Assembly: GCF_019923725.1 (NCBI RefSeq)
Contig: NZ_JAHXRI010000004.1
Span: forward strand, 1 to 64,000
Source: Zwartia hollandica
GTDB taxonomy: Bacteria; Pseudomonadota; Gammaproteobacteria; Burkholderiales; Burkholderiaceae_B
DNA length: 64,000 bases
Reading direction: 5' to 3'
Shown here: piece by piece, positions 60,283 through 64,000 of the stretch
Layout of the letters: every line of letters begins with the position of its first letter
How positions within the stretch are numbered: position 1 is the stretch's first letter
Translations under genes and position numbers: made by a program
The notes under the pieces: generated by a model
Told to the model about the DNA's origin: nothing
What the model saw: the letters and a program-made list of their open reading frames with translations, nothing else
Databases searched by the model: none

Positions 60283-61113
60283 TCACTGCCGCGCACTGCG
60301 GTGCAGGCCCGGTTCAGGCATACCCACAGTCGCTCGCCAGGGATTAATGTCTAACCCTCCACGCCGAGTGTAACGGGCATAAACCGATAGCTTTGTTGGC
60401 ATGCAACGTTGCATGATGTCAGTAAAGATCCGTTCTACACAGTGCTCGTGAAAGCCGCCGTGATCTCGAAATGACACAATGTATTTCAGCAGGCCTCTCA
60501 GGTCGATCTGTGGCCCGGTGTAGTCGATTTGTACGCACGCCCAGTCTGGCTGATTAGTGATTGGGCAGTTCGACTTCAGCAGACGAGAGTACACCGATTG
60601 CTTGACGACTTCAGTCGATGTGCTGCGCAATAGACTGTCGTCCGGTGTGTAGCAGTCGATCACCACGTCCTGATCGTCCAGACATATTCCGGTGGGTTCG
60701 CTAATCCGCTGCTCAGCAAAGTCAGCGCTCTCGATGAGGCTAAGCAGAACAGGGTTCCCGCACACGGCGGACAAGTCCTTGGCTAGTGTCTCTAGGAGTA
60801 ACTGACTTGAAGAAAATCGTGTCTGATTCAAACTGTTTAAGTACAGCTTGAAGGATTTTGATTCGATGATGTTCGTGCTTAATGCATTGACTTGCACGCG
60901 CAGCAAGGCAACCCGGGGCAGCCCATTCGGGGTGAGCCATGAGACCTCATAGGCATTCCATAGGTCCCAGCCAACAAAGGGCAGGCCGTCTTGCGCCACA
61001 CCCAGGTCGGCGCGACCCGTCTGGCGTGGAATTGGAAATAAGAGTCCAGGGTCGTATTCCGACGGATAGGCAGTTATTTTGCCCAACGCTAGGGCCTCAG
61101 TTGGCTTAATCAT
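60283..61113 (-). CDS. queF: NADPH-dependent 7-cyano-7-deazaguanine reductase (preQ0 reductase)
   Basis: 276 residues from ATG 61113 (IKPTEALALGKITAYPSEYD), fused two-domain type II QueF. Catalytic Cys in LLKSNCPITNQPDWACVQI; NADPH motif ESKSFKLYLNS; substrate Glu in FHEHCVERIF. It makes preQ1 for queuosine in tRNA. Convergent with pgsA. Confidence 0.95.
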   Translation of the reverse strand: MIKPTEALALGKITAYPSEYDPGLLFPIPRQTGRADLGVAQDGLPFVGWDLWNAYEVSWLTPNGLPRVALLRVQVNALSTNIIESKSFKLYLNSLNQTRFSSSQLLLETLAKDLSAVCGNPVLLSLIESADFAEQRISEPTGICLDDQDVVIDCYTPDDSLLRSTSTEVVKQSVYSRLLKSNCPITNQPDWACVQIDYTGPQIDLRGLLKYIVSFRDHGGFHEHCVERIFTDIMQRCMPTKLSVYARYTRRGGLDINPWRATVGMPEPGLHRSARQ

Positions 61114-61149
61114 GAAAAATGCCAGAAAAATAAATTCGATTTTACCCAC

Positions 61150-61163
61150 TTGATCTAGATCAA
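61150..61163. promoter_or_regulatory. FNR/Anr box upstream of the ccoI-like gene
   Basis: TTGATCTAGATCAA, a perfect match to TTGAT-N4-ATCAA, 38 nt before the ATG of the ccoI-like gene. Confidence 0.75.
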
Positions 61164-61200
61164 GGCGTATGCCGCTCAATAGCCCTACGATGCATACACC

Positions 61201-62172
61201 ATGCCGACATCTATTTTTTCTATCAATCGTCCTCTAACTGCCAACGAACTGGCCGCACGAAGAACAGATCTAGTCCGTTTGGGTTTGGCATGGCTCGCCA
61301 TGATGCAGGTCATGATGTTTGCTTTGCCTGGTTATTTGAGGATTGATGCTGGCCCGAACGATAGTATTGAAGTGCTCGATTGGGCGATCCTGCTAATGAA
61401 TTGGGCGAGTTTGACGCTTTCGATTCCAGTGGTGCTGTATTCAGCCTGGCCAATTTGGGGAGGTCTGCGCAGAGCCCTAAAGCATCGTCGCGTCACGATG
61501 GATGTCCCAGTGTCTATTAGTATTGTGGCGGCTTTTATTCCTAGCGCAATTGCAACGGTGCGGGGTGAAGGGGAAGTGTATTTTGATTCGGTCACGATGT
61601 TCGTGGCGTTTCTTCTTACGGCCCGTTATTTTGAGCAGCGCGCCAGACAGTCTCTTCAGACCGGTGTCTTAGGTCGCTCGTTGCGCAGGCTGAGTGAGCC
61701 GTTGCGCATACAGTCAGACAGGGTGGCGACTGTGTTCGTACTCACCCAAATGGGTTTTGCCTTTGTGATCGCAGCACTTTGGTGGCTAACTCAACCCGAG
61801 CACGCGTTGGATATTCTGGTTGCGTTACTTGTTATGAGTTGCCCTTGCGCATTATCGCTAGCGGTACCGGCTTCTTTAGCCGCGACCCACGTTAGCCTCG
61901 CTGCACACCCAGATCTGTCAGAGGAAGAGCGGGCTCAACTTTTCGTACGGACCAGAACTGTTGCAAGACAAAACCTGTATGGCTCGCTCGGATGGCATAT
62001 CTTGACCATGCCGTTAGCGGCAGTCGGGCTCGTGACGCCCTGGTTGGCGACCTTGCTGATGTTCATCTCTTCGATGGCCGTCATTTTCAATGCGTGGCGA
62101 CTTTACCGATTACCAGAGCGCATGGTCAAGGCTCAACGTCGTGCGTTTGGCTCTACCGGGGCGACAGCGTAA
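61201..62172 (+). CDS. CcoI/FixI-like P-type ATPase lacking the cytoplasmic catalytic domains
   Basis: 323 residues where ccoI normally stands. Membrane helices resemble CcoI: MQVMMFALPGYL, FDSVTMFVAFLLTARYFEQRAR, VMSCPCALSLAVPASLAATH (copper CPC motif at about 214-216), NLYGSLGWHILTMPLAAVGL then VTPWLATLLMFISSMAVIFN. Full CcoI is about 750-830 residues. Here the N-terminal metal domain is absent, the actuator segment between helices 4 and 5 is reduced to about 30 residues, and the phosphorylation/nucleotide segment between helices 6 and 7 to about 35: no DKTGT, TGE or GDGVND is present. The frame is open and followed by ccoS. So it cannot work as a pump alone. Confidence 0.85.
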   Translation: MPTSIFSINRPLTANELAARRTDLVRLGLAWLAMMQVMMFALPGYLRIDAGPNDSIEVLDWAILLMNWASLTLSIPVVLYSAWPIWGGLRRALKHRRVTMDVPVSISIVAAFIPSAIATVRGEGEVYFDSVTMFVAFLLTARYFEQRARQSLQTGVLGRSLRRLSEPLRIQSDRVATVFVLTQMGFAFVIAALWWLTQPEHALDILVALLVMSCPCALSLAVPASLAATHVSLAAHPDLSEEERAQLFVRTRTVARQNLYGSLGWHILTMPLAAVGLVTPWLATLLMFISSMAVIFNAWRLYRLPERMVKAQRRAFGSTGATA

Positions 62173-62190
62173 ACAAGACAAGGTGGGATG

Positions 62191-62364
62191 ATGGAAATTC
62201 TCTATTTACTGCTTCCTCTGTCGCTGTTTGTAGTCGCGCTCATCGGTGGCGTGTTGTGGTGGGCTGTATTTTCTGGTCAATACGATGACCCTGATGCAGC
62301 GAGTTTGTCGATTTTGCGCGACAACGATTCGACTTCAACGCAAACGTCACACCTTTCCTCCTGA
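62191..62364 (+). CDS. ccoS: Cbb3 oxidase assembly protein CcoS
   Basis: 57 residues: EILYLLLPLSLFVVALIGGV one membrane helix, then WWAVFSGQYDDPDAASLSIL, the CcoS hallmark. ATG 62188 is also possible; AAGG lies before it. It is needed to insert cofactors into the oxidase. Directly follows the ccoI-like gene. Confidence 0.9.
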   Translation: MEILYLLLPLSLFVVALIGGVLWWAVFSGQYDDPDAASLSILRDNDSTSTQTSHLSS

Positions 62365-62367
62365 GGC

Positions 62368-62381
62368 TTGATCCAGATCAA
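62368..62381. promoter_or_regulatory. FNR/Anr box upstream of ccoN
   Basis: TTGATCCAGATCAA, 66 nt before the ccoN start. It suggests induction of the oxidase when oxygen is low. Confidence 0.75.
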
Positions 62382-62446
62382 AGCTTTAGCGAAGTCGATT
62401 AGGCATGATTCGGTTACGAAGAAAGTTTTCTAAAGGAACGCAGAAA

Positions 62447-63919
62447 ATGGCTAGTTTGAGTGCGACGAAGGCAGAGACCTTTAATTACGGTGTGGTCAGG
62501 CAGTTTGCAATCATGACCGTCGTGTGGGGCATTGTCGGTATGCTGGTGGGTGTCATCATCGCAGCCCAGCTATTGTGGCCGCAGCTCAACTTTGATATTG
62601 CTTGGCTGACGTACGGGCGCCTCAGGCCTCTGCATACCAACGCCGTGATTTTTGCATTTGGTGGCAGTGCGCTCTTTGCCGCTTCGTATTATGTTGTTCA
62701 ACGGACATGCCAGGCACGCTTATTTTGTGGTCCCCTAGCGGCTTTCACCTTTTGGGGTTGGCAGCTGATTATTGTGGGTGCTGCAATTACTCTGCCTCTG
62801 GGGATTACCACTTCAAAAGAATACGCCGAGCTCGAGTGGCCAATCGACATTCTGATCACGTTGGTCTGGGTAGCGTATGCGATTGTTTTTTTTGGCACGA
62901 TCATTAAGCGTAAAGCAAAGCATATCTATGTAGCGAACTGGTTTTTTGGTTCATACATACTTACGATCGCGGTGCTGCATATTGTGAATAACATCGAGCT
63001 CCCGGTGTCGATGTGGAAGTCGTACTCCGCCTACGCCGGCGTGCAAGATGCAATGGTGCAATGGTGGTACGGCCATAACGCTGTTGGATTTTTCCTGACC
63101 ACTAGTTTTCTTGGCATGATGTATTACTTCATTCCAAAGCAAGCACAGCGTCCGATCTACTCGTACCGCCTGTCGATTGTTCACTTTTGGGCGTTAGCTT
63201 TCACCTACATGTGGGCAGGGCCACACCACCTGCTCTATACCTCGTTGCCTGACTGGACCCAATCTCTGGGTATGGTGTTTTCGTTGATTCTGCTCGCACC
63301 GTCTTGGGGTGGAATGATCAACGGCATCATGACGCTCTCAGGCGCTTGGCACAAGTTGCGTACCGATCCGATTTTGAAGTTTATGGTTGTGTCGCTGTCG
63401 TTCTATGGCATGTCAACTTTTGAAGGTTCGATGATGTCAATTCGCACGGTCAATGCGCTTTCACACTACACCGATTGGACCATCGGTCACGTGCACTCTG
63501 GAGCGCTCGGTTGGGTGGCGATGATTACCTTTGGCATGTTGTATTACCTCATCCCTAGGCTGTGGGGTCGCGAAAAAATGTACAGCACAAAGTTAATCGA
63601 GGTTCACTTCTGGATCGCGACAATTGGTGTGGTGCTCTATATCGCCTCCATGTGGATTGCAGGTGTGATGCAAGGTTTGATGTGGCGTGCCACTGAGCCC
63701 GATGGCTCGTTGACCTACAGCTTTGTTGAGTCCGTGAAGTCAACCTTCCCGTTTTACGCAATTCGTCTAGCGGGTGGCGCACTGTATCTGTCCGGCATGC
63801 TCTTAATGGCCTACAACGTATTTAAGACCGTGATCGGTGAGAAGGCAGTGAATCCGGAAATTCCAGCGGATAGCGCGGCCGTACGCCCCATGTTGGCAAC
63901 TGCGCCAGCCAGCGCCTAA
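62447..63919 (+). CDS. ccoN: Cytochrome c oxidase cbb3 subunit I
   Basis: 490 residues from ATG 62447, AAGGAACGCAG before it. 12 helices. Heme-b and copper ligands appear as [15 protein letters not shown] (His), [10 protein letters not shown] (His pair) and HVHSGALGW (His-x-His). It is the catalytic, high-affinity oxygen-reducing subunit of the inner membrane. ccoO follows after 10 nt. Confidence 0.96.
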
Positions 63920-63929
63920 GGAGAATTAC

Positions 63930-64000
63930 ATGGCTCAAGAAAATCACGGCTTTTTTTCACACCAGACACTTGAAAAGAACATTGGTTGGATGATTGTTTG
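63930..64000 (+). CDS. ccoO: Cytochrome c oxidase cbb3 subunit II (5' end only)
   Basis: The first 23 codons (AQENHGFFSHQTLEKNIGWM) match the CcoO N-terminus; AAGGAG precedes the ATG. The rest is outside the window. Confidence 0.8.
   Translation, partial: MAQENHGFFSHQTLEKNIGWMIV

Follow-up and report, generated by a model that had tools for sequence, protein, structure and literature searches.

A CcoI derivative without ATPase domains in the cbb3 oxidase operon of Zwartia hollandica and its family, a candidate ATP-independent copper relay

The described systems closest to the gene reported here are CcoI/FixI, the CopA2-type P1B-ATPase of cbb3 oxidase assembly, and CopA, the CopA1-type exporter (3rfu and others). 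No description of a CcoI without cytoplasmic domains was found in the open-access literature searched. In the mutant data given for R. capsulatus, a CPC mutant of CcoI had no cbb3 activity and was not rescued by copper, whereas mutants of either N-terminal site kept about one quarter of the activity and were partly or wholly rescued by copper (PMC8475189). For Caulobacter, FixI is described as strictly required for the cbb3 oxidase, with added copper being no substitute (PMC12617631). In its discussion of cbb3 assembly, a review calls it puzzling that this process strictly needs the exporter CcoI and cytosolic copper, since the copper of CuB enters from the periplasmic side (PMC7558416). A survey of copper in beta-proteobacteria omitted the ATPase class that supplies respiratory complexes (PMC6769254). 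The account of CopA used here describes an entry site made of an M1 methionine and the CPC cysteines, mentions a glutamate and an aspartate nearby, and has the exit path lined by MA, M2, and M6 (PMC10973460).

The window, that is to say the whole stretch of 64,000 nucleotides that was analysed, contains an uninterrupted 323-aa frame at 61201–62172 of the forward strand, which takes the place of ccoI in a complete cco operon for the cbb3 oxidase. We designate its product the short CcoI. The gene, its internal linkers, and its surroundings are as follows:

61150..61163, no strand: FNR/ANR-type box TTGATCTAGATCAA, whose first base lies 51 bases upstream of the short gene's start codon
61201..62172, + strand: short, motor-less ccoI; 323 aa, with eight membrane helices by alignment to full CcoI and no cytoplasmic domains
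61651..61716, + strand: short M2–M3 linker in place of the actuator domain (alignment with full CcoI)
61891..61956, + strand: short M4–M5 linker where the phosphorylation and nucleotide domains are missing (alignment with full CcoI)
62188..62364, + strand: ccoS, cbb3 oxidase maturation protein (PF03597 1.5e-16, TIGR00847 5.2e-14)
62368..62381, no strand: second FNR/ANR-type box TTGATCCAGATCAA, between ccoS and ccoN (motif scan)
62405..63919, + strand: ccoN, catalytic subunit of the cbb3 oxidase with the CuB site (TIGR00780 4.3e-240)
63930..64000, + strand: start of ccoO, cut by the window end; the rest of ccoO, then ccoQ, ccoP, ccoG, and ccoH, lie on the contig beyond the window

Alignment with full CcoI proteins of the same family and order matched the membrane part of the short CcoI and indicated that three blocks are gone: (i) the N-terminal metal-binding part; (ii) the actuator domain of the M2–M3 loop; and (iii) the phosphorylation and nucleotide domains of the M4–M5 loop. 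Linkers of about 22 residues are left at both internal places. By Pfam and alignment, the short CcoI lacks the TGES actuator, the DKTGT and GDGxND phosphorylation and nucleotide domains, and the N-terminal metal-binding domains (PF12156, HMA). The helices were assigned by alignment; a hydropathy scan gave seven peaks, in which M5 and M6 are unseparated. A preliminary description of the gene had stated that the membrane helices and the CPC motif are retained, with which the alignment agrees, and that there is no stop or frame break, which holds for the whole 323-aa frame. It had placed the losses at two internal places; this is right for the actuator and the phosphorylation/nucleotide loops and wrong for the metal-binding part, which is lost at the N-terminus, making three losses. 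This N-terminal loss, the fixed Asn-to-His change, the single origin, and the FNR-type box had been overlooked. The Pfam E1-E2_ATPase match of the short CcoI covers only model positions 108–180 of 181 and scores 38.6 bits against a gathering score of 28.1 bits, which is a warning for annotation: the short form clears the threshold yet is no ATPase.

The residues of the copper path were mapped through the solved Legionella CopA (3rfu) onto 87 distinct short forms (those with a length of 280 aa or more, taken from 119 rows; 90 when partial ones are included), and 27 of 28 full CcoI sequences served for comparison (L154 was dropped). The principal codons in the window are as follows:

61498..61500, + strand: M100, equivalent to the entry methionine M148 of Legionella CopA; M in 87/87 short forms
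61585..61587, + strand: D129, equivalent to E189 of Legionella CopA; D in 83 and E in 4 of 87
61840..61848, + strand: C214-P215-C216, the CPC copper motif in M4; 87/87
61996..61998, + strand: H266, the Asn of YN in full CcoI (CopA N689); H in 87/87 short forms, N in 27/27 full forms
62059..62073, + strand: M287 to S290-S291, the M-x-x-S-S motif of M6; 87/87 each

M287 corresponds to M717 of Legionella CopA, and D129 stands in the place of an acid that we take to belong to the exit. E145 aligns with CopA E205, presumably the entry glutamate, and is E in 85/87 short forms. D173 aligns with CopA D337, which we assume to be the entry aspartate, and is D in 59 and N in 28 of the 87. The Tyr of YN is lost: W265, at the position of CopA Y688, is W in 81 and F in 6 short forms. 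The H266 column is the sole one of 296 compared that is invariant in both the short and the full CcoI with different residues; other conserved residues specific to the short form are W31, F40, G44, I63, N67, W86, P114, and Q183. Nine path columns, chosen by hand and excluding W265, had a mean entropy of 0.151 against 1.282 for all columns, and column sets as low in entropy made up 4.5e-5 of 200,000 random sets. On this mapping, most copper-path positions of CopA are kept in the short form, the exceptions being Tyr to Trp/Phe, Asn to His, and the D337 equivalent.

Like CcoI/FixI, the short CcoI is encoded in the cco operon beside ccoS, has the membrane helices, the M-x-x-S-S motif, and MMQVMM in helix MA, carries the CPC in M4 that constitutes TM-MBS1 in all 87 sequences, and has a membrane core nested in the CcoI tree (described below). 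Unlike CcoI/FixI, it has no N-terminal metal-binding, actuator, phosphorylation, or nucleotide domains; it has 323 aa, compared with 834–846 aa for the full CcoI frames of G002 and of 6 loci of family group g32; and its YN is replaced by (W/F)H, so that TM-MBS2, which combines YN in M5 with M-x-x-S-S in M6, is not present as such. Judged from its sequence, the short form is thus a CcoI descendant that fails the defining features of the ATPase. It shares with CopA the equivalent copper entry, CPC, and M-x-x-S-S positions; by contrast, CopA is a full ATPase, and its 2 rows fall outside every CcoI used in the comparison. Pseudoenzymes made by domain loss have lost their catalytic domains and retain a conserved core. 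The short form differs from these in that it retains a substrate path and not a relic of a catalytic domain.

The best explanation of these comparisons is that the short CcoI is a conserved, functional CcoI derivative that has shed every ATPase domain and kept the intramembrane copper path, and we infer that it binds and transports copper. We put the probability that this motor-less, copper-binding CcoI relays Cu(I) to CcoN without ATP at about 0.6. At low oxygen, the short form would be made together with the cbb3 oxidase; it would receive Cu(I) either from a chaperone or from the copper that CopA exports to the periplasm, hold it at the CPC/His/Met-Ser site, and pass it on to CcoN, directly or via CcoS or SCO1/PCuAC, without ATP, acting as a copper relay or facilitated conduit and not as a pump. 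The (Trp/Phe)-His in place of Tyr-Asn would suit a site freed from an ATP-driven conformational switch. Since the CPC motif is indispensable and the N-terminal sites are only helpful in R. capsulatus, an ATP-free relay or conduit is favoured: the short form has retained what those mutants show to be indispensable and, besides the motor, has dropped what they show to be helpful. The stronger formulation, an ATP-independent copper insertase or conduit in which a P-type ATPase became, on a single occasion, a passive Cu(I) relay serving CuB with a metal site rewired by His for Asn, has in our judgement an even chance of being right. If it is, ATP-driven transport by CcoI would not be intrinsically needed for CuB insertion, and the intramembrane hand-over would be. 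The family, including Achromobacter and Alcaligenes, appears to run its cbb3 oxidase with a CcoI devoid of the parts for ATP hydrolysis; the short form is a natural experiment that separates the copper hand-over from the ATP-driven step, and it suggests that the latter may not be what cbb3 assembly needs.

Several points count against the relay. The Tyr of YN is lost and the D337 equivalent is Asn in about a third of the short forms (28/87), conservation of the path residues may reflect helix packing, and the driving force is unexplained without ATP. A B. bronchiseptica strain with cco as its sole oxidase is reported to have been unobtainable despite high transcripts (PMC11257404); the strain may carry either form of ccoI.

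Of the three functions put forward in the preliminary description, a passive copper carrier appears to fit best because most copper-path positions are kept; a copper-free scaffold seems less likely, and a partnership with a full ATPase is possible. As a copper-independent scaffold or assembly factor, the short form would use its helices to hold CcoS and CcoN during assembly, and its copper site would be a relic. The membrane helices, the linkage to ccoS, and the eight conserved short-specific residues outside the copper motifs listed above are in keeping with such a role. Drift would be expected at a relic site, but conservation is among the highest in the path columns, and the single fixed substitution (H266) lies within the site and adds another possible metal ligand. 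We therefore regard the scaffold as unlikely.

The copper ATPases of the host bear on the second alternative, in which the short form is a non-catalytic partner of a full copper ATPase (CopA): it would bind to CopA or to the chaperone of CopA and direct exported copper towards CcoN. In its 3.2 Mb, the host genome (99.7% complete) encodes one full P-type ATPase, a CopA-like protein of 788 aa; its single copA is adjoined by a SCO1 gene and a CopZ-like HMA-domain match (94-aa frame, opposite strand), an arrangement that speaks for a partnership, and the genome has two PCuAC matches. A search with PF00122 found CopA and the short form only, with no other actuator domain in the host genome, which argues against a full CcoI hidden elsewhere in the host, and that possibility is rejected; the second, complete ccoI that the preliminary description had proposed to look for is thus absent from the host. 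Across the family, a strong P-type ATPase match besides the short form occurs in 181 of the 184 genomes with a short form, and the 3 exceptions (G012, G023, and G024) are incomplete genomes (82, 76, and 90%, respectively). This agrees with a partnership, and a possible dependence on another P-type ATPase also weighs against a self-sufficient relay. However, such ATPases are common anyway (258 of all 268 family genomes), in counts that cover every type of P-type ATPase without distinguishing copper pumps, and no short ccoI lies in the neighbourhood of copA in the loci inspected. A partnership with CopA is accordingly improbable in our estimation, and we retain the relay without ATP as the preferred reading. 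A split ATPase, in which other genes supply the missing domains to the short form, has no supporting point and is rejected for the host genome at the sensitivities used, because PF00122 matches nothing there besides CopA and the short form and, of three DKTGT-codon sites (in CopA, in an unrelated-looking 363-aa frame, and in a 50-aa frame), just that of CopA lies in an ATPase.

PF12156 was matched in 8 of the 268 family genomes, none of them with a short form; 9 of 17 genomes with full CcoI are also without a match. Absence of PF12156 does not exclude a full CcoI elsewhere in genomes other than the host, for which PF00122 does. Five full-type CcoI frames of 756–798 aa in the same family have no PF12156 match (L139, L140, L141, L143, and L156, from G186, G174, G246, G220, and G188, respectively).

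In 4 of 20 hand-picked genomes with a short form (G204, G206, G249, and G250), CcoN is the only COX1 match. The other 16, the host among them, have one or two further COX1 matches; in 7 of these (G109, G199, G201, G251, G253, G254, and G255) the sole extra match is weaker and lies in a frame of 748–817 aa, perhaps a nitric oxide reductase. In some species the cbb3 oxidase may therefore be the sole oxidase of the heme-copper type, which speaks for its assembly without a CcoI ATPase.

The family considered is that of the host (268 genomes), which is Alcaligenaceae going by the named relatives. At a best E below 1e-40 in the search tables, the short form was counted in 184/268 family genomes and 26/32 genus genomes. 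Of the 32 genus genomes, 26 match ccoN at 3.5e-168 or better; 25 of these have the short form and 1 (G002) a full CcoI, so that the finding is contrary to a full-length ccoI in close relatives, which the preliminary description had named as evidence against a conserved form. In genus genome G015, which has no ccoN match, a piece of the short form lies at the end of a contig. Across the family, ccoN scored over the cut-off in 199/268 genomes, which divide into 176 with the short form, 17 whose fetched locus contains a full-type CcoI, 4 in which the contig ends within the locus (G128, G162, G198, and G200), and 2 with a divergent ccoN (G141 and G142). The last 2 have no match to the short ccoI or ccoS within the 10 kb fetched, where G142 has a weak partial match to full CcoI. 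In the remaining 8 genomes with a short form, ccoN is below the cut-off or without a match: it is at a contig end in G050, broken in G078 and G115, and unmatched in G015 and G097; the other three are G026, G105, and G163. COX1 genes resembling ccoN and far below the TIGR00780 cut-off (E of about 1e-67 to 1e-79) occur in G124, G147, G156, and G217, and as extra copies in G141, G142, and G078; they probably represent another oxidase type.

Gene order is known for 10 of the 17 full-CcoI loci: 9 have ccoI just before ccoS-ccoN, and in L146 (G216:C63:48000-58000) the full ccoI and ccoS are located after ccoP. The other 7 have the ccoN and CcoI frames within one 10-kb locus. Two full-type CcoI frames are short: that of L142 has 672 aa, and that of L154, where the contig ends, has 479 aa. 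Named relatives with the short form, among the best 80 of 483 candidates, are Zwartia, Sheuella, Achromobacter, Alcaligenes, Pusillimonas, Pollutimonas, Candidimonas, Paenalcaligenes, unclassified Alcaligenaceae, and others; five MAG records (L050, L063, L069, L072, and L073) bear improbable names (Bordetella parapertussis, Lautropia mirabilis, Candidatus Methylopumilus), and these labels are probably wrong. Outside the family, no short form was among the matches listed for an order sample of 399 genomes; the best match, stated for genomes outside f1, is partial (161 bits) and lies inside an 859-aa frame. A plasmid search at 1e-20 gave two partial matches.

The trees indicate that the short form arose once, in the Alcaligenaceae lineage, from CcoI. 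In a tree of ccoN, for which 85 of 106 rows were used after removal of 21 redundant Achromobacter rows, the 60 short-form rows lie on one side of a branch (100/97), which corresponds to one change. In a tree built from the membrane core, with 47 rows and 299 columns, all 18 short forms group in a single clade (100/100) that lies within CcoI and is nested with the full-length forms (95/94), and the two CopA rows used fall outside (a third was omitted as too short); descent from CopA is rejected on this placement. Its neighbours in the tree include the full CcoI of group g32 of the family and that of family f31. The stem of the short clade is long (0.74 in the membrane-core tree), which suggests a burst of change and, we infer, constraint thereafter. 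The same-genus G002 (locus L042, G002:C9:12000-24000) has a full CcoI of 834 aa, and both its ccoN and its CcoI group with family f31; its cco operon looks to have been replaced by transfer from outside.

Selection was estimated by the Nei-Gojobori method on 20 hand-picked pairs, 14 of which were usable, with a short-gene dS between 0.05 and 2. The omega of the short gene had a median of 0.157 and a range of 0.019–0.255; the values elsewhere in the operon were 0.028 for ccoN, 0.066 for ccoS, 0.067 for ccoP, 0.079 for ccoG, and 0.193 for ccoH. These values indicate that the short gene is under purifying selection, looser than that on ccoN. That its omega is above those of ccoN, ccoS, ccoP, and ccoG counts against the relay; it is below that of ccoH. 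No stop was present in the short-form rows among the matches listed in the genus and family searches. In G115, a 4.0-Mb single-contig genome, the short gene (locus L155, 4596-6562) is broken by an interruption of about 1 kb, which also counts against the relay, though ccoN there is broken too, with a stop. The ccoN of B. pertussis is reported to be a pseudogene (PMC13038864).

The same data bear on the reading of the short gene as a pseudogene or assembly artefact. The loss of the ancestral enzyme domains, an omega higher than that of ccoN, and the interrupted copy in G115 would agree with decay; against this stand the occurrence in 184/268 genomes as one clade, the median omega, the invariant copper motifs, and the conserved upstream box, and we reject decay or assembly error, which is very improbable given the family-wide short form, its purifying selection, and its fixed operon position. 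The earlier proposal of a conserved form and not of random decay is upheld by the family-wide occurrence and the purifying selection, and a high mutation load, which would have spoken against it, is at odds with an omega well below 1.

Strict TTGAT-N4-ATCAA sites occur exactly twice in the 64 kb, as TTGATCTAGATCAA and TTGATCCAGATCAA. Among named loci from the best 80 of 483 candidates, 76/79 have a relaxed box in the 250 bases preceding the short gene (66 have a strict one), compared with 0.14% of shuffled upstream stretches used as control, and a relaxed box lies in the ccoS-ccoN interval in 68/78. A Crp/FNR-family regulator is encoded downstream of the operon (L003:10524-11294). The motif points to low-oxygen control of the operon. 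In the same best 80 of 483 candidates, ccoS-ccoN follows the short gene in 78/80 named loci, and the other 2 end with the contig; the full order, short ccoI-ccoS-ccoN-ccoO-ccoQ-ccoP-ccoG-ccoH-small ORF, is present in 63/80, and the remaining 17/80 have the first part of the operon in unchanged order.

The small ORF after ccoH encodes 79 aa and lies beyond the window (L003:7502-7741; C20:67501-67740). It has no Pfam match at 0.01, closes the operon in 63/80 named loci (best 80 of 483 candidates), and is possibly an unrecognised small cco protein. Before the operon, a divergent QueF-type gene (PF14819, PF14489) occupies positions 60286-61179 of the window on the reverse strand.
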